Part shown: positions 1 to 5,243 of the stretch, one piece after another | Layout of the letters: every line of letters begins with the position of its first letter | Numbering within the stretch: position 1 is the stretch's first letter | NCBI GenBank assembly: GCA_016839385.1 | Contig: JAEOUK010000476.1 | Span: 1 to 5,243 of the forward strand | Reading direction: 5' to 3' | Source: Promethearchaeota archaeon | GTDB lineage: Archaea; Asgardarchaeota; Lokiarchaeia; Sigynarchaeales; MK-D1 | DNA length: 5,243 nucleotides | Notes under the pieces: generated by a model | Seen by the model: the letters and a program-made list of their open reading frames with translations, nothing else | Database searches by the model: none | What the model was told of the DNA's origin: nothing | Made by a program: the position numbers and the translations under genes

Positions 1-557
1 GAATAATTCCAAATATCGATCCATTCGATATGATATTTACACCTTATTATAATAAGTCATTTATCCCAGATGTTTGTGATATAATTGATCAAACAATAAG
101 TGTTCTAAAAAATCAGCCATTAAAACTTGATAAAAATAATTTAAATAAAGAAGATTTGAATTTAAAGAAATACTATGTTGATCTTAGTCGAATTGAAGAA
201 CTTAAATCTATTAAATCATCACATTTTGACCTTACTAAATTAATAACATTATGTGAGGAATTGAATATTGCAAATCAAAATAAATGCTATCTGTCAATTG
301 CTATGTTAACAAGATCAGTTATTAATCATGTTCCACCTATCTTTTCTTCTAAAACATTTAAAGAAATTGTAAATAACTATAAAGGATCAAAATCGTTTAA
401 AGAATCAATGGAGCATTTGGAAAACTCTATGAGGAAAATATCTGATTCACATTTACATACAACAATAAGGAAAAAAGAAACATTGCCAAATTTTGTACAA
501 GTAGATTTCTCTTCAGATTTGGATGTTCTATTGTCTGAAATTGTAAGAATATTGTAA
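1..557 (+). CDS. Unrecognised protein, C-terminal part (5' end outside window)
   Basis: The frame is open from the first base (first full codon at 3) to the TAA at 555-557. The first ATG, at 30, has no Shine-Dalgarno before it and the codons ahead of it read as ordinary protein, so I take this as the end of a longer gene; if ATG 30 were the start the protein would be 175 aa. Numbering from that Met, residues 63-115 and 120-175 are mostly helical in character and end in a hydrophobic segment (LDVLLSEIVRIL). This C-terminal region resembles one I have seen recurring in unnamed bacterial proteins, but I cannot name a family. Two R-x(4-5)-H patterns (R95/H100 and R135/H141) recall the Rx4-6H motif of HEPN ribonucleases; this is suggestive only. 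No membrane segment or signal is visible. The gene ends only 3 bases before the attC at 561, as cassette genes often do. Confidence 0.75.
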   Translation, partial: IIPNIDPFDMIFTPYYNKSFIPDVCDIIDQTISVLKNQPLKLDKNNLNKEDLNLKKYYVDLSRIEELKSIKSSHFDLTKLITLCEELNIANQNKCYLSIAMLTRSVINHVPPIFSSKTFKEIVNNYKGSKSFKESMEHLENSMRKISDSHLHTTIRKKETLPNFVQVDFSSDLDVLLSEIVRIL

Positions 558-591
558 AATTTCTAACAAGAGCATATTATGATGCCCATCG
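1..591 (+). mobile_element. Integron gene cassette 1 (partial, right end only)
   Basis: This is the right-hand part of a cassette whose left boundary lies outside the window. It holds the truncated unrecognised gene and ends at the G|TT crossover point G591/T592 of the shortened attC. Because that attC has lost its centre, this cassette may no longer be separable from the next one. Confidence 0.6.
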
Positions 592-597
592 TTAGAT
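561..597 (+). other. Collapsed attC recombination site (37 bp)
   Basis: The left simple site is TTCTAAC (561-567) and the right one GTTAGAT (591-597, a perfect GTTRRRY match). TCTAAC pairs with GTTAGA, and inside them GCAT (572-575) pairs with ATGC (582-585) around a 6-base loop. Its outer arms are nearly those of the 99-bp attC at 3285: TTCTAACAAG then GCAT on the left, and ATGC, one changed base, CATCGTTA on the right. The roughly 62 central bases, which would carry the extrahelical bases and terminal loop, are missing. Known attC sites are rarely shorter than about 55-60 bp, so this one is probably a deletion derivative with poor or no activity. Confidence 0.65.
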
Positions 598-658
598 ACT
601 TTAATAATATTGCATAGAGAGTAAGTACTTAATTCATAGTGCTATTTCCTATTTTTTT

Positions 659-663
659 GGAGG
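659..663 (+). promoter_or_regulatory. Strong ribosome binding site (GGAGG) for the TIR gene
   Basis: GGAGG sits 7 bases before the ATG at 671 and fixes that start codon. It is the only strong Shine-Dalgarno in the window; the other cassette genes have weak or no recognisable sites. Confidence 0.85.
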
Positions 664-670
664 TTGTCAA

Positions 671-1747
671 ATGAATAAAAAAGTCTTTATCTCTTACCCT
701 AATACAAGTAAAGACATTGCAGAACTATTGGTAAATTATCTTGAGAAAAGTGGCATACAAGCAGTTTGGATTGACACAGATGAAATATCAGTGGGTGAGA
801 ACATCAGTCGACGTCTTAAGGAAGGAGTACGGGAGTCTGCTTGTTGTGTTTTCTTACTAAATACATACTCTTTAGAATCATCCTGGTGTATGGCTGAAGT
901 CGGATCTTTTTGGGGAGCCGATAAAAAGATTATCATGTATCCTATCGAACCTCGCTGTCCTATACCTGATTATCTTGTAGGAACTCGATTTGCGAATAAT
1001 CTTGATGAGGTGGTCAAAGCTTGTAAAGAGGTAGGGGAACCTACTTATAGTTACGGGGAACCCTTTCATCAAATGTTTCGCAGAAGTGGAATGACTGCGG
1101 CTTTTAGAATCCCAGAGGAAAATCCTGCTCGGGACAATAGAATTAAACAACTCATATCGGAAGAATGTGAGTTGTCCGGTCAAAAAGCCTTTCGTCTTAT
1201 GGCCAGTTCAGGATTTAACTATTTGAGTTCGAATGGTCAATCATGGAAAGTGGGCCTGGGAGATGCAATACTTGACATTAAAGCTAGCTTTTCTGTTGTC
1301 CTTGAATCCCCATTTTCATTATTCGCTAAAACTAGAGCTTTGGCAAATCAGGTCACCCATCATCACTGGCAAGAAAAAATTTCACTTTCTGAACTTGAGA
1401 AATTGAACCAGCTTGATAATGTATCTATTAGAGTCACTGAGCATGCCGTAAATTGTTCTTTGTTTTTTACAAGGAGAGCAGTATTCTATGATCCATACCT
1501 CTGGGCTCGACCCAAACCAGCTCGCAAGACAGAAAATAATTTTTGGGTATTTGAGTTTACCAAAGTTGATGAGCAAGATTATGACTGTTACGAACTTCTT
1601 ATGAAACATTTCGATTTTATCGAATCCACGAGTATTCCACTTCAAGAATTTCTTGGTGAAAACCATAAAAAATATAATGAGAATACCGTAAGATTTCGCC
1701 AAGAAATGGAAGCAAAGCTGAAAAAGTTTTTAAATGAGAAAGAATGA
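671..1747 (+). CDS. TIR-domain protein with C-terminal PLD-like region
   Basis: 358 aa, start fixed by GGAGG 7 bases upstream. Residues 1-120 form a TIR domain: first strand KVFISYP (4-10), a D/E-rich turn WIDTDEISVG (33-42), the strand CCVFLLN (58-64) and the signature SSWCMAE (70-76), in which E76 is the expected catalytic glutamate. Bacterial TIR domains with this residue commonly cleave NAD+ or make cyclic ADP-ribose-type signals. Residues about 135-325 look like a single degenerate phospholipase-D-like unit (core strand AFRLMASSGFNYL, 173-185; later SLFFTRR then FYDPYLWARP and FWVFEF), with no HxK...D catalytic motif, so a sensing or oligomerising role is more likely than lipase activity. 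A charged helical tail closes the protein. No signal peptide or membrane helix is seen, so it should be cytoplasmic. Its TGA overlaps the next ATG by 4 bases, indicating translational coupling. The TIR call is firm; the C-terminal call is an inference from pattern. Confidence 0.9.
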   Translation: MNKKVFISYPNTSKDIAELLVNYLEKSGIQAVWIDTDEISVGENISRRLKEGVRESACCVFLLNTYSLESSWCMAEVGSFWGADKKIIMYPIEPRCPIPDYLVGTRFANNLDEVVKACKEVGEPTYSYGEPFHQMFRRSGMTAAFRIPEENPARDNRIKQLISEECELSGQKAFRLMASSGFNYLSSNGQSWKVGLGDAILDIKASFSVVLESPFSLFAKTRALANQVTHHHWQEKISLSELEKLNQLDNVSIRVTEHAVNCSLFFTRRAVFYDPYLWARPKPARKTENNFWVFEFTKVDEQDYDCYELLMKHFDFIESTSIPLQEFLGENHKKYNENTVRFRQEMEAKLKKFLNEKE

Positions 1748-2898
1748 ATAAAAAAAGTCTTTTAGATCGTTTGAATCCCAATTATCATTATAATCCAATC
1801 GCTTATCACGATAGCTGGATTTCAGTTGACCCAATAATTGGCTGCCAACTCAATTGTCAATACTGCTATATGCAAATGACTAATTGGACAGATGTGCAAC
1901 CAGAGGTTATATATTCCGTACCTCAAATTCTTAAAATGTTATTGGAGCATAAATATTTTACTCCACACCAGACTGTACTCAGCTTCGCTAATCAAACAGA
2001 TCCATTTCTTCACAAAAATATCGAATTGACTCTCCAATTTTTAAAAATATTGGATTTGAATAAACTCAAGAATCCCGTTGTTCTTGTAACTAAAAAATAC
2101 ATTCCTGACTATTTTATTGATCAAATTTCATATTTGAGATTTGTAAGACCAATATTTTGTCTCAGCTATTCCGGCCTACCCAGAAATATTGAAAAAGGAG
2201 TTAATCCAGATGAAAATCGAAGAAATTTTCGAAAGTTATTTGACCATAACATCCGTGTAGTCCATTTTTGGCGTCCGTTGCTCAGAGCAAATGGAACTCT
2301 TGAGGCGTTACAGGAAGTTATGGATTATGTAGTTAAATATGCATTAGCCTCTGTTTATATAGGTATTAAACTAAATCCATATCTCATACTACTTTACAAT
2401 AGGAATCCTTATTTGAAAATTCCTCAACATGTAAATGAGCAATATGGCGATTACATTCCAGAGGGAATAGAAGAACGTCTTAGAACACTTGCAAAGAGAA
2501 AATATCCTCATTATCCACTTTATATGCACGCATCTTGCGCTGTTAGCCTGGCATTATCGATACCAGATTATAATGCTACTATCTATAGGGACCCGATTTG
2601 TAAACGTAGTGAGTGTCCATTTTGGAAGCGACAAATTTGTGAAAATGCACAGTCTGTTCCAGATTCCAAAAAGATTAGAAATTTACTCGCACGAATTTTC
2701 TTAAATAATAAGTTCGAAGTCACAAATGAGGCTGTTTACATTTCAGGAAATTTAAATCAAGAAGATTACAGTTTTCTGCTTCATCAACTTAATTATCCTT
2801 TGATAGTGAAAGATCTATGTTACAATCGTGTCTTGAGGGGAAGTATATTCAGTAAAAATGATGAAAACAACCTAAACCAAGGGAATTGTCAAAAATGA
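1744..2898 (+). CDS. Radical SAM protein, spore-photoproduct-lyase-like family
   Basis: 384 aa, starting at the ATG inside the ATGA overlap with the TIR gene; a weak purine run GAGAAAG precedes it. The CxxxCxxC motif is C34, C38 and C41 within IIGCQLNCQYCY, which should hold the 4Fe-4S cluster that cleaves S-adenosylmethionine. The aromatic after the last Cys is typical, and GCxxxCxYCY is the form seen in the SplB/COG1533-type group. The barrel appears to span about residues 25-215 (ISVDPIIGC, VVLVTKK, FCLSYSG, VYIGIKLNP). Past it, four more cysteines (C265, C286, C291, C299, in IC then SECPFWKRQIC) could bind a second iron-sulphur cluster or zinc. The last 75 residues form a small separate region. 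The substrate is unknown: spore photoproduct repair is unlikely in this setting, and a nucleotide or nucleic-acid substrate is only a guess from the MazG neighbour. It is not viperin-like in the sequence around the cluster motif. Confidence 0.88.
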   Translation: MNKKSLLDRLNPNYHYNPIAYHDSWISVDPIIGCQLNCQYCYMQMTNWTDVQPEVIYSVPQILKMLLEHKYFTPHQTVLSFANQTDPFLHKNIELTLQFLKILDLNKLKNPVVLVTKKYIPDYFIDQISYLRFVRPIFCLSYSGLPRNIEKGVNPDENRRNFRKLFDHNIRVVHFWRPLLRANGTLEALQEVMDYVVKYALASVYIGIKLNPYLILLYNRNPYLKIPQHVNEQYGDYIPEGIEERLRTLAKRKYPHYPLYMHASCAVSLALSIPDYNATIYRDPICKRSECPFWKRQICENAQSVPDSKKIRNLLARIFLNNKFEVTNEAVYISGNLNQEDYSFLLHQLNYPLIVKDLCYNRVLRGSIFSKNDENNLNQGNCQK

Positions 2899-3245
2899 GA
2901 GAAAATATTACGATTCATGAAATAATGGAGAAAACAACTGGTCTTCAGAAACTTTTTCGAAAAATTGAAAATAAGCCCTGGACTATTGATACATTTATAA
3001 TTGAACTTTTGGCGGAAGCAGGCACACTTGCAGATAGCATTATGATAAAAGAGGGGTATAGAAATCTCAGAACAGGACAAAAACCTATCGATTTAGAGGA
3101 TGATATTTGCGATATACTTTTTGTACTTTTTATGATTGCAGACTATTATGAAATTAATATAGGAAACTCGTATTTATCAATGATAGCTTCGACTCGAAGC
3201 AAGCTTGAAGCAAAACTTAAAGATAACTTACAAAAGACAAAATGA
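2895..3245 (+). CDS. MazG-like nucleotide pyrophosphohydrolase
   Basis: 116 aa from ATG 2895, which overlaps the radical SAM stop as ATGA and lies about 10 bases after AAGGGA. An in-frame TTG at 2886 would add three residues, but it directly abuts that purine run and is less likely. The protein is all-helical: WTIDTFIIELLAEAGTLAD (29-47) carries the first acidic pair E37/E41, and LEDDICDILFVLFMIADYY (67-85) carries the second metal-binding half. This is the MazG arrangement, which hydrolyses nucleoside triphosphates to monophosphate and pyrophosphate with Mg2+. The second half reads D70-x-x-D73 where MazG usually has E-x-x-D, a conservative change that should still bind metal. At this size it is a single-domain MazG-like protein, probably forming dimers or tetramers. 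As the last gene of the operon it may remove or recycle a nucleotide made or consumed by the TIR and radical SAM enzymes; that link is inferred. Confidence 0.82.
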   Translation: MRENITIHEIMEKTTGLQKLFRKIENKPWTIDTFIIELLAEAGTLADSIMIKEGYRNLRTGQKPIDLEDDICDILFVLFMIADYYEINIGNSYLSMIASTRSKLEAKLKDNLQKTK

Positions 3246-3284
3246 TAAAGTTAAAACATTAATCAGTATCATTCACTAAATTGT

Positions 3285-3383
3285 TTCTAACAAGTGCATT
3301 GACGCTGACCTTGTGGAGCTGCTCGTGAATTGCTAAGCCTTTTCCGGTTGCATCCACAAGGCAGGTCATGCACATCGTTATCT
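3285..3383 (+). other. Integron attC site (99 bp) ending cassette 2
   Basis: The left simple site is TTCTAAC (3285-3291) and the right one GTTATCT (3377-3383), with the crossover after G3377. Inner arms pair as GTGCAT/ATGCAC, GAC/GTC, CTG/CAG, CC/GG and TTGTGGA/TCCACAA around a 35-base loop (3318-3352). T3300, G3304 and A3308 are left unpaired on the left arm only; such one-sided extrahelical bases are the hallmark that lets integrase choose the correct strand. The hairpin is followed by TCTTTTT, so it could also weaken transcription into the next cassette. Confidence 0.88.
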
Positions 3384-4378
3384 TTTTATTGCATATTGAC
3401 ATATGGAATTAATTAAAAAACTGATTGATCTTTTTAATGATCTTCGACGGATTAATTTTAATTCAGAAGAAAAACCAAGTGATGCTGAAAACCTTACTGA
3501 TATACTTGAAATTGTAGCTGTAGCAGCAGACATAAAACCAACACACCTTAATGGTCAGGGATGTATAAGTTTAGAACTTATAAATAATTTAGAAAAGATA
3601 GCCTCAAGACATGACCTATTAACATTAAGGACGAAATCTATAAAACCTTACATGCATCGGAAACCAAATTATGATCTAGAAATCTTTGAATGGAATCAAA
3701 ATAATTTAATTGATAGAAATAAATGGCCCGATATCCTATGGATTTATAAGGATGATTCACTTATTGATTTGATTCATAATACTGTATCAGGAAAAATTAA
3801 TGTATCTAAGGTTTTAGGATATCCTGATTGCTGTGTTAATCATTATCTAGAGGTTGGGCTTCATACTTCAGAATTATATGTAGATGCATTACGTCGAGTT
3901 TACAATGTGACAAAACCAGAAGAAATTATAGAATTAATGAGGAAAGATACAGATGTGAATGTTGATGAAATCCCTGTGGAAGCAACAATCAAGCTTTCGG
4001 GATGGGTCTTACCATATGTTCAATTCAATGCATGTCCTAAGTGTCTAAAATCTTCTGATTCCCCTTCAAAAAAAATTAATTATAATATGAGAAATTTAGC
4101 ATTCCAGTTATCAGAATCTTTTGGATGTGAGATTTGGAAAGCAAAATATATTGAAAAAACTTCTGATTATAGATTAAAAAATATTAAAAGAAATGATCCA
4201 TGTCCTTGCTGTTCTGGTAAAAAATACAAAAAATGTTGTGGAAGGTAATCTGGTTCGTTGTTACTTATTCTTAAATATTGATTTAATAATTAGATAACTT
4301 TTCCACCCGACCACGCTACCAGCCGCTGTGAAATTGCGAGCTCGGCTTTGAAGTGGCGCGTGGGCGGGTGAGGGTGGG
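3378..4378 (+). mobile_element. Integron gene cassette 3 (SEC-C protein)
   Basis: The cassette is 1001 bp from T3378 to G4378. Its first bases TTATCT are the exact complement of the left arm AGATAA of its own attC at 4292-4384. It contains one gene, whose ATG lies 25 bases after the left boundary, a normal short cassette leader. Confidence 0.82.
3403..4248 (+). CDS. SEC-C motif protein with GYPDCC (DUF483-like) region
   Basis: 281 aa. ATG 3403 is the first start after an in-frame TGA at 3397-3399, so the start is well bounded, although no clear Shine-Dalgarno precedes it. The C-terminus (residues 264-281, NDPCPCCSGKKYKKCCGR) is a SEC-C zinc-binding motif like that at the end of SecA; C267, C269, C278 and C279 fit the metal ligands, with an extra Cys (C270) where Gly is usual. 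In the middle, KVLGYPDCCVNHYLE (136-150), then NACPKC (209-214) and NYNMRNLA (226-233), recall DUF483-type proteins, which share a YPxCC motif and a downstream Cys pair. The N-terminal 130 residues are not recognised. No membrane segment is present. The motifs point to a metal-binding cytoplasmic protein, perhaps binding nucleic acid or protein; the function is unknown. It is the sole gene of its cassette. Confidence 0.85.
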   Translation: MELIKKLIDLFNDLRRINFNSEEKPSDAENLTDILEIVAVAADIKPTHLNGQGCISLELINNLEKIASRHDLLTLRTKSIKPYMHRKPNYDLEIFEWNQNNLIDRNKWPDILWIYKDDSLIDLIHNTVSGKINVSKVLGYPDCCVNHYLEVGLHTSELYVDALRRVYNVTKPEEIIELMRKDTDVNVDEIPVEATIKLSGWVLPYVQFNACPKCLKSSDSPSKKINYNMRNLAFQLSESFGCEIWKAKYIEKTSDYRLKNIKRNDPCPCCSGKKYKKCCGR

Positions 4379-4384
4379 TTATCT
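4292..4384 (+). other. Integron attC site (93 bp) ending cassette 3
   Basis: AGATAAC (4292-4298) and GTTATCT (4378-4384) are perfect complements and form the outer simple sites, with the crossover after G4378. After spacers of 5 and 7 bases, CACCCG pairs with CGGGTG, CCACGC with GCGTGG and AGCCG with CGGCT, interrupted by mismatched or unpaired bases. The left simple site is not a strict RYYYAAC match, but its fit to the right end and to the cassette start supports the call. The site is GC-rich against AT-rich flanks. Confidence 0.83.
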
Positions 4385-4400
4385 GAAATGATATAGTAAT

Positions 4401-4631
4401 ATGAAGACACAAAAGAAAGATAATTGGGAATATACGAATGAATATGGTGAGAAATGGATATTTGAATATGATTCCTTAACCGGTGTAGGTAACCTCAAAG
4501 GATCTGATATCAGTTGGCAAAGCTATAAGGTAATTGATGGAAAGGCAAATGGTTTATTATTAAATGAAGGTGAGTTAAAATGGCTCAAAGAAATTTGGGA
4601 GAAGGTTACTGCGAATAAGTCTGGTTATTAA
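4401..4631 (+). CDS. Small unrecognised cassette protein (76 aa)
   Basis: 76 aa, not recognised. ATG 4401 lies 22 bases after the cassette boundary, the usual position for a cassette gene; no Shine-Dalgarno is visible, and a three-codon ATG-ATA-TAG frame lies just ahead. The sequence is rich in Trp, Lys, Glu and aromatic residues (WEYTNEYGEKWIFEYDS, then NLKGSDISW) and looks like a short beta-strand section followed by a helix (GELKWLKEIWEKV). It has no cysteine, signal peptide or membrane helix, so it is probably a small soluble protein. Its position directly ahead of an antitoxin-like gene raises the idea of a two-gene unit, but it does not look like a known toxin fold. Confidence 0.65.
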   Translation: MKTQKKDNWEYTNEYGEKWIFEYDSLTGVGNLKGSDISWQSYKVIDGKANGLLLNEGELKWLKEIWEKVTANKSGY

Positions 4632-4646
4632 AACATAAAAGGGTTC

Positions 4647-4665
4647 AGATAATATACTGTTATCT
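4647..4665. repeat. Short inverted repeat matching attC simple sites (possible attC relic)
   Basis: AGATAA (4647-4652) and TTATCT (4660-4665) are perfect complements 7 bases apart. The right half, GTTATCT at 4659-4665, is identical to the right simple sites of the attCs at 3285 and 4292, and the left half differs from AGATAAC only at its last base. It lies 16 bases after one stop codon and 26 bases before the next start codon, where a cassette junction would be expected. It could also be a chance hairpin; it lacks the T-run of a terminator on the + strand. Confidence 0.45.
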
Positions 4666-4690
4666 AAAAATAAAGATGTGAGAACAAACA

Positions 4691-5032
4691 ATGGATCTTT
4701 ACGCAATAAAGCAAGCCATTTTAAACCTTACAGATATTGAATTCGCCAGATTCCAGAATTGGTTCGATAAAATAGGCTGCAATCGAATAAATAAGAATGC
4801 CAAAAGCAGTAAAATAAGACAGGCTGTTCTGAATCTAACAGATAAGGAATTTGGTCATTTCTGGGACTGGTTCGAGGATTTGTGCGATGAACTATGGGCC
4901 GAGGAAGTAGAAAATGATCCGATAGCTCGTAAGTGCTTGGAAATTGGATACATGATAATGAGTAAGCCAGATCCTGGTAAGTTTCTTGCTGATTTACTTG
5001 GCGGGAGTAATGAGGCAAAAGAAAAAGAGTAA
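4691..5032 (+). CDS. Antitoxin-like protein with duplicated N-terminal motif
   Basis: 113 aa from ATG 4691; a weak GTGAGA lies 8 bases upstream. Residues 6-28 and 42-64 are repeats of one motif (IKQAILNLTDIEFARFQNWF against IRQAVLNLTDKEFGHFWDWF; 13 of 23 positions identical). This pattern of an AIxxL(S/T)xxEFxxFxxWF helix pair followed by an acidic stretch with a Trp (here ELWAEEVENDP, 67-77) is common at the N-terminus of small antitoxin-like proteins from type II toxin-antitoxin loci. Such proteins usually carry one copy. The remaining residues (78-113) are helical and end in a charged tail. No recognisable toxin gene follows before the attC; the stop codon overlaps the first base of that attC. 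The role could be an orphan antitoxin or an unrelated helical adaptor; the family call is from pattern only. Confidence 0.72.
   Translation: MDLYAIKQAILNLTDIEFARFQNWFDKIGCNRINKNAKSSKIRQAVLNLTDKEFGHFWDWFEDLCDELWAEEVENDPIARKCLEIGYMIMSKPDPGKFLADLLGGSNEAKEKE
4706..4882 (+). repeat. Intragenic duplication in the antitoxin-like gene
   Basis: Bases 4706-4774 and 4814-4882 encode two copies of a 23-residue motif in the same frame, separated by 13 residues. The DNA copies have diverged at many positions, so the duplication is old and is maintained at protein level. Confidence 0.7.
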
Positions 5033-5136
5033 GATAACCAGGCGCTTGACTTGACCTTGCTTTCCTGACCGTGAATCGTGCAAGCAAGGTATTTGGGGCG
5101 CAAGGCAAGTCAGCTCTTCGAACCCCGCAGTTAAAT
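5032..5136 (+). other. Integron attC site (105 bp, asymmetric) ending cassette 4
   Basis: The left simple site is AGATAAC (5032-5038), overlapping the stop codon of the preceding gene. The arms pair as GCT/AGC, GACTTG/CAAGTC and CCTTGC/GCAAGG (5044-5060 with 5099-5114), leaving T5047 and A5054 unpaired on the left, the usual one-sided extrahelical bases. The right simple site is taken as GTTAAAT (5130-5136), a perfect GTTRRRY match. The right spacer is about 15 bases against 5 on the left, so the right end is less certain than in the other sites. Confidence 0.72.
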
Positions 5137-5243
5137 TTTAGGTTATACGATATTTTGTCTAACGCCTTTATCATTAAATTATAAAAAATCGGTTACTTAT
5201 CTAGGTTTTTTCCACAATAGATTTAGCTCGTTTAATTGTTCTA
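5131..5243 (+). mobile_element. Start of the next cassette (partial, no gene visible)
   Basis: These 113 AT-rich bases follow the last crossover point. I see no start codon leading to a meaningful frame and no terminator. GTCTAAC at 5157-5163 fits the RYYYAAC left-site consensus, but no matching right arm lies within the window. The gene of this cassette probably begins beyond the right edge. Confidence 0.4.

Follow-up and report, generated by a model that had tools for sequence, protein, structure and literature searches.

A TIR-domain effector gene with radical SAM and MazG-like partners in a probable integron cassette: a candidate immune-type system on an Asgard archaeal contig

The window analysed here is a stretch of 5,243 bases (contig JAEOUK010000476.1, positions 1 to 5,243; assembly GCA_016839385.1) assigned to a Promethearchaeota archaeon, with 34% G+C, in which the forward strand carries the main genes and hairpin-forming, attC-like sites separate the gene groups. 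Between two such sites lies a probable integron cassette with three same-strand open reading frames (ORFs), encoding a TIR-domain protein with a conserved C-terminal domain (CTD), a radical S-adenosylmethionine (SAM) protein and a MazG-like protein, with an ATGA overlap at both junctions (Table 1); apart from the CTD, an initial annotation of this DNA had described the same arrangement.

Table 1. Positions of the cassette and its features in the window (CTD, C-terminal domain; PLD, phospholipase D; aa, amino acids).
Feature	Position	Strand	Basis
Whole cassette	592..3377	+	span between presumed attC recombination points
Left attC-like site, short; core GTTAGAT at 591	555..603		inverted arms 555-567/591-603
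TIR-CTD effector gene, 358 aa	671..1747	+	ORF and Pfam
TIR domain, residues 1-124, putative NADase	671..1042	+	catalytic E76 at 896-898
CTD, residues 129-358 (start ~129), conserved, PLD/Nuc-like, HKD-less presumed sensor	1055..1744	+	CTD profile, Foldseek
Invariant C262 of CTD	1454-1456	+	alignment
Radical SAM gene, spore-photoproduct-lyase-like, 384 aa	1744..2898	+	Pfam, alignment, model
CxxxCxxC radical SAM cluster motif (C34, C38, C41)	1843..1866	+	alignment
Second cysteine set C265-C286-C291-C299, candidate auxiliary Fe-S cluster	2536..2640	+	alignment
MazG-like gene, 116 aa from ATG 2895	2895..3245	+	family profile, PF03819
MazG-like metal-site region E37..D73, ExxE altered to E41xxT44	3003..3113	+	alignment, YpjD comparison
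Right attC-like site	3284..3382		bottom-strand DNA fold of 3280-3385

The first protein begins with a TIR domain, matched by Pfam TIR_2 at E 4.3e-18 (66.4 bits, above the cut-off of 28). The catalytic glutamate proposed in the initial annotation, E76, is glutamate in all 27 relatives compared from the 32 of the TIR cluster, and the domain would be expected to cleave NAD+. That annotation had treated the protein as a TIR protein and had overlooked its CTD; the model of the whole chain, which spans both domains, has a mean pLDDT of 91.9 and a pTM of 0.71.

A search of 5.8 billion proteins with the TIR protein gave 78 proteins with the CTD, the query included, and the CTD profile matches all 78, some of them partially, most of the 78 having themselves gone into the profile. 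When the N-termini of these proteins were clustered by BLAST, 32 fell into a TIR cluster, a count which is favoured by the use of a TIR-CTD query. Clusters of 15, 4 and 2 members carry two hydrophobic segments in 20 of 21 proteins and one in the other, by a simple hydropathy count; 10 proteins form an unannotated cluster, four carry DUF4062, six are singles, among them CAP12-TIR, calcineurin and EAD7, and in 5 of the 78 the N-terminus is absent or short. A TIR-CTD protein (P0057) and a DUF4062-CTD protein (P0076) come from contigs of identical size (6158), suggesting two effectors at one locus. Swapping of killing domains on an unchanging partner domain is typical of phage defence; constant cores with variable effectors are known from other conflict systems (PMC7159879), and DUF4062 is described in a preprint as a TIR-like antiphage NADase (PMC13174449). 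It is because the CTD is common to many other effector types that the gene set looks immune-like, and on this ground the earlier suggestion of a candidate defence system gains in plausibility.

Among the 67 aligned CTD sequences the invariant residues include R154, E165, C262, D274, P275 and H313, and C306 is nearly invariant. The best Foldseek match of the first protein, in an output that gives no aligned ranges, is the PLD-family nuclease NucT (E 1.8e-6), with SauUSI, PPK1, Nuc and PLD3 in lower rows, interspersed among TIR proteins; in a second structure aligner (VIA) the rows were taken up by the TIR part. The catalytic motif of the PLD superfamily is HxK(x4)D. No conserved HxK was found across the 67 aligned sequences, in which H313, followed by F314, is the sole histidine in the invariant or nearly invariant columns, and because of this absence PLD nuclease activity of the CTD is unlikely. 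A sequence-level link to PLD proteins was sought without success: hhalign with six single sequences, five with PLD-type HKD motifs and the sixth an unrelated ORF, gave nothing, and the CTD profile matched nothing in the PDB at E<=10. The assignment, based on the fold search and a comparison by eye with one further protein (from locus L012), thus points to the CTD as a presumed HKD-less, PLD-like sensor.

The second protein matches Pfam Radical_SAM at E 1e-5 but with 26.2 bits, below the cut-off of 29.5. The cluster-binding cysteines predicted in the initial annotation, C34, C38 and C41, are invariant in all 39 sequences aligned (from 50 found), and the model (pLDDT 92) matches spore photoproduct lyase (SPL) and PFL-AE; motif and modelled fold together place the protein in the radical SAM superfamily. 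The second set, C265-C286-C291-C299, is invariant in the same 39 sequences and is kept too in five aligned Streptomyces and alphaproteobacterial cousins. Prokaryotic viperins share the radical SAM fold and a nucleotide theme with this protein, and viperin had been offered as the earlier example; the nearest fold of the model appears instead to be SPL, which scores above viperin and is for that reason our first choice, although the protein may still be a viperin; there was no viperin profile match in PADLOC at E<=1 nor among NCBIfam matches, libraries which we take to hold viperin models. SplB itself differs in its operon context and is 14% identical, in an alignment that covers residues 1-262 only, so that three of the four extra cysteines, being in the C-terminal part, fall outside it.

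More distant relatives of the radical SAM protein have neighbourhoods of their own. On Mesorhizobium, Labrenzia and Streptomyces plasmids (L004:6097-8248, L005:6118-8242, L018:6950-9843) cousin genes are followed by genes for a 3'-5' exonuclease and a small AAA ATPase, confirmed in Pfam for L004 as RNase_T and AAA_28, and this is a separate recurrent module; in Streptomyces, five of the six stretches with annotation have class II aldolase and murA genes upstream of the cousin.

The third protein alone had no match in Pfam. Its family, 31 relatives including the query in a strictly conserved alignment, matches PF03819 (MazG) at E<=0.1 in 27 of 31 members (best 4.4e-5), the window protein being outside those 27, and a PDB search with the family profile gives YpjD (E 1.1e-7); these profile matches relate the protein to MazG and the all-alpha nucleoside triphosphate pyrophosphatases.

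Whether these genes travel together was assessed from exact equality of longest-contig sizes between protein hits, with the window left out and the contigs compared by size alone. Besides the window, the radical SAM and CTD proteins share 10 contig sizes (null mean 0.32, maximum 4 in 20,000), the radical SAM and MazG-like proteins share 7 (null mean 0.10, maximum 3 in 20,000) and the CTD and MazG-like proteins share 4 (null mean 0.17, maximum 4 in 20,000), the last being the weakest pairing because the null maximum also reaches 4. Contig sizes of 4008, 13217 and 22972 bases are common to all three, and the effectors concerned are of the TIR, DUF4062 and CAP12-TIR types. Distances between CTD proteins correlate with those between radical SAM proteins (Mantel r 0.45, 12 pairs, one CTD partial; 1 of 20,000 permutations as high), and distances between radical SAM proteins correlate with those between MazG-like proteins (r 0.52, 8 pairs; 141 of 20,000). 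Most of the hits lie on short contigs (jgi, lgn, ena and ncbi sources) and are presumably metagenomic.

The only other such locus read, from an Acidobacteriaceae metagenome-assembled genome (L006), has adjacent genes for a CTD protein (1980-3059), a RelA/SpoT-domain protein (3056-3931; PF04607, E 1.1e-12) and a radical SAM protein (to 5045), and tblastn with the window's MazG-like protein found no match there. Because this locus carries the RelA/SpoT gene and no MazG-like match, MazG is not universal in the system. The RelA/SpoT-domain protein is similar to small alarmone synthetases (YwaC, E 1.5e-7) and matches the PADLOC candidate PDC-S33 (E 9.6e-14). On co-occurrence, the initial interpretation is supported in part, with the trio on three further contig sizes and the pairs above the null, and with most hits left unpartnered by size matching; the unit looks less like the TIR, radical SAM and MazG trio then proposed than like a CTD effector with a radical SAM protein, with the MazG-like partner tied to one radical SAM group.

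On balance we lean towards the view that the cassette is a self-contained, immune-type TIR-effector system with an SPL-like radical SAM partner that controls it; this immunity reading is drawn from the constant CTD with exchangeable killing domains together with the report on DUF4062 antiphage NADases. What the data show directly is the operon structure, the conserved motifs, the joint recurrence of the parts and the swapping of effectors on an unchanging CTD; from these we infer NAD+ cleavage by this protein, the defence role, the radical SAM substrate, the ligand of the CTD and the direction of control, activating or restraining. In the mechanism that we propose, the HKD-less, PLD-like CTD would restrain the N-terminal killing domain until a cue arrives, upon which TIR domains would assemble, NAD+ would be destroyed and the cell would be arrested. 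The SPL-like radical SAM protein would most likely make or modify a nucleotide or nucleic-acid ligand sensed by the CTD, and the MazG-like protein, or the RelA/SpoT-type protein at L006, may supply, trim or bind that nucleotide. More tentatively, this might be an undescribed class of immunity in which a radical SAM enzyme, and not a nucleotidyltransferase or a TIR protein, creates the immune signal or lesion mark, a catalytically dead PLD-like receptor, swapped between effectors of NADase, membrane, calcineurin and other types, reads it, and MazG- or RelA/SpoT-type proteins tune the signal.

Several observations weigh against this reading. A size-matched radical SAM protein was found for 10 of 76 CTD hits of known size, a link which is indirect, and for 3 of the 17 CTD hits whose longest contig is at least 10 kb; in the other directions, 14 of 49 radical SAM hits have a CTD or MazG size match and 8 of 30 MazG hits have a CTD or radical SAM one. 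The size-match search is leaky, in that the L006 CTD protein is 97% identical to P0096, yet its adjoining radical SAM protein (best 65%, P0045) is outside the radical SAM hits, and because of this leakiness there may be CTD effectors without a radical SAM partner. A distant CTD-like protein (L008:5827-6543, 30% identity) on Sinorhizobium meliloti plasmid p_3 is accompanied by no radical SAM protein of this family within the 12.5 kb that were read. The system is also rare: scanning 84,980 species genomes for the pattern gave one confirmed locus, and draws of 396 genomes of its phylum (for the CTD) and 399 of its class (for the radical SAM protein) returned only the pattern-scan genome itself, the centre of the draw. 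The PADLOC matches of other cassettes in the window are weak and come via a SEC-C motif (PDC-S12, E 4.6e-6, for the protein at 3403-4248). Lastly, the metal site of the MazG-like family is altered. The canonical MazG motif is ExxE...ExxD; compared with YpjD, the window protein has E41xxT44, with T44 invariant in 31 sequences, and in the second half D70xxD73, with D70 nearly invariant and E37 and D69 invariant. Because an invariant threonine occupies one canonical metal-ligand position, pyrophosphatase activity is uncertain, and members of the family might act on a different substrate or bind one without cleaving it.

The same data can be read in other ways. The radical SAM protein, with MazG or RelA, might constantly make a nucleotide that restrains the CTD effector, which would be freed when a phage attacks the nucleotide pool or the enzyme; an enzyme partner beside swappable, potentially toxic effectors suits such a guard, for which Panoptes, with its enzyme-made nucleotide controlling an effector, offers a precedent and a possible logic (PMC12657218), but no family match suggests an OptS or OptE relative among the window proteins. 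Activation and restraint fit the present data alike, and we consider a guard of this kind rather unlikely. Less probable still is that the radical SAM protein modifies the effector itself, for example at C262, which is invariant in the CTD, or at C306, which is nearly so, with no small ligand; the invariance of C262 and the extra four-cysteine set would suit this, as extra cysteine sets are known from peptide- and protein-modifying radical SAM enzymes.

Two further explanations seem to us less probable again, and equally so. The compact, overlapping genes might form an addiction or toxin-antitoxin module that keeps the array of cassettes stable, with defence incidental, and toxin-antitoxin pairs are frequent in integron cassettes; however, to our knowledge described antitoxins are unlike an iron-sulphur radical enzyme, and the N-terminal domains found on the CTD match defence repertoires. 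A role in nucleotide or DNA-damage housekeeping, in which the radical SAM protein would mend a lesion or produce a modified nucleoside, MazG would clear the nucleotide pool and the TIR protein would only signal stress, draws on the SPL-like fold and on the nucleotide genes close to some cousin radical SAM proteins, but would leave unexplained why a single CTD type is combined in turn with two-segment, NADase-type, CAP12-TIR and calcineurin domains.

An immune-type TIR-effector system of the kind that we prefer has partial likenesses to several known ones. With Thoeris it shares a TIR domain with a catalytic glutamate and weak ThsB profile matches, and it differs in that its TIR continues into a PLD-like CTD in the same protein and has radical SAM and MazG-like proteins encoded beside it, no ThsA-like partner being found among the seven window ORFs scanned with family libraries; membership of Thoeris was rejected, with ThsB_TIR at 17.9 bits (cut-off 21.2) and NCBIfam ThcB4 at 32.1 bits (cut-off 220). 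In CBASS, Pycsar and type III CRISPR a constant sensor domain is fused to exchangeable effectors, and TIR, two-segment membrane and CAP12-TIR types are found on our CTD too, whereas here the sensor is PLD-like and the partner a radical SAM protein. Outside the TIR part, none of the scanned ORFs matched CD-NTase, cyclase, Cas10, SAVED or CARF families, and CBASS membership was rejected as no CD-NTase gene was found among them. The TIR-APAZ protein of SPARTA likewise has an N-terminal TIR and a C-terminal regulatory domain, and its TIR part matches; the SPARTA rows in VIA align residues 1-124 only, and there is no Argonaute among the scanned ORFs. Swarozyc, a system of DUF4062 NADases, has in common the DUF4062 found among the N-terminal domains on the CTD, and the main text of its preprint does not contain the words 'radical', 'MazG' or 'phospholipase' (PMC13174449). 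In the literature searched, from which subscription journals were largely absent, no paper joined radical SAM, TIR domain, MazG and anti-phage; none joined spore photoproduct lyase, phage and TIR domain; and none joined three of phospholipase D-like, TIR domain, radical SAM, DUF4062 and calcineurin-like. The initial annotation likewise knew of no described system with this exact trio. The single mention of radical SAM in PMC7159879 concerns FtsH ternary systems.

The identity of 592-3377 as an integron cassette is probable. Of the single cassette first proposed, the folding of both edges speaks in favour: the bottom strand of 545-610 folds with z -3.3 against shuffles (2 of 200 equally good) and that of 3280-3385 at -22.2 kcal/mol with z -4.5 (0 of 200). 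Other signs are less clear: only one of the four core boxes at the edges (that at 591) strictly fits RYYYAAC/GTTRRRY, making the overall fit partial, and no integrase was found among the scanned ORFs. Further along, the bottom strand of 4288-4388 also folds better than shuffles (z -3.0), and that of 5030-5150 no better (z -0.8). Between 540 and 3400 there are 13 promoter-like sites (11.2 expected) and no terminators (1.5 expected); Rfam gave nothing at E<=1, and a nucleotide search of plasmids with the cassette gave no match. Integrons have been described as stores of defence genes (PMC12444791, PMC12409362), and a MazG cassette has been used in expression tests in Vibrio (PMC2945992).

Elsewhere on mobile elements, radical SAM matches occur in 37 plasmid records, all below 60% identity (26-36% among the 20 matches listed), and nine plasmid stretches read (L001-L005, L016-L019) hold no CTD save for a 54-residue match at E 0.008 in L017. 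Carriage by phages or viruses was rejected: 50,697 phage records gave no CTD-protein or radical SAM match at E 1e-5, and 130 and 41 pattern stretches in viral contigs gave 0 confirmed.

The cassette is preceded in the window by the 3' part of an unannotated gene (1-557) that belongs to the cassette before it and for which neither PADLOC nor, above cut-off, Pfam gave a match. The next cassette (3403-4248) encodes a protein of 281 aa that carries a SEC-C motif (PF02810) in its C-terminal part and is weakly similar to DUF483, and 4691-5032 encodes a 113-aa protein with two similar stretches (ILNLTDIEFARFQNWFD and VLNLTDKEFGHFWDWFE) and weak DUF6686 similarity.

If our proposal is true, a radical-chemistry branch would be added to bacterial immune signalling, with a new sensor fold, the HKD-less PLD domain, that can be combined with many known killing domains, in a three-gene system compact enough (2.8 kb) for an integron cassette. 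Were a signal made by the radical SAM protein proven, this would be a new class of immunity.

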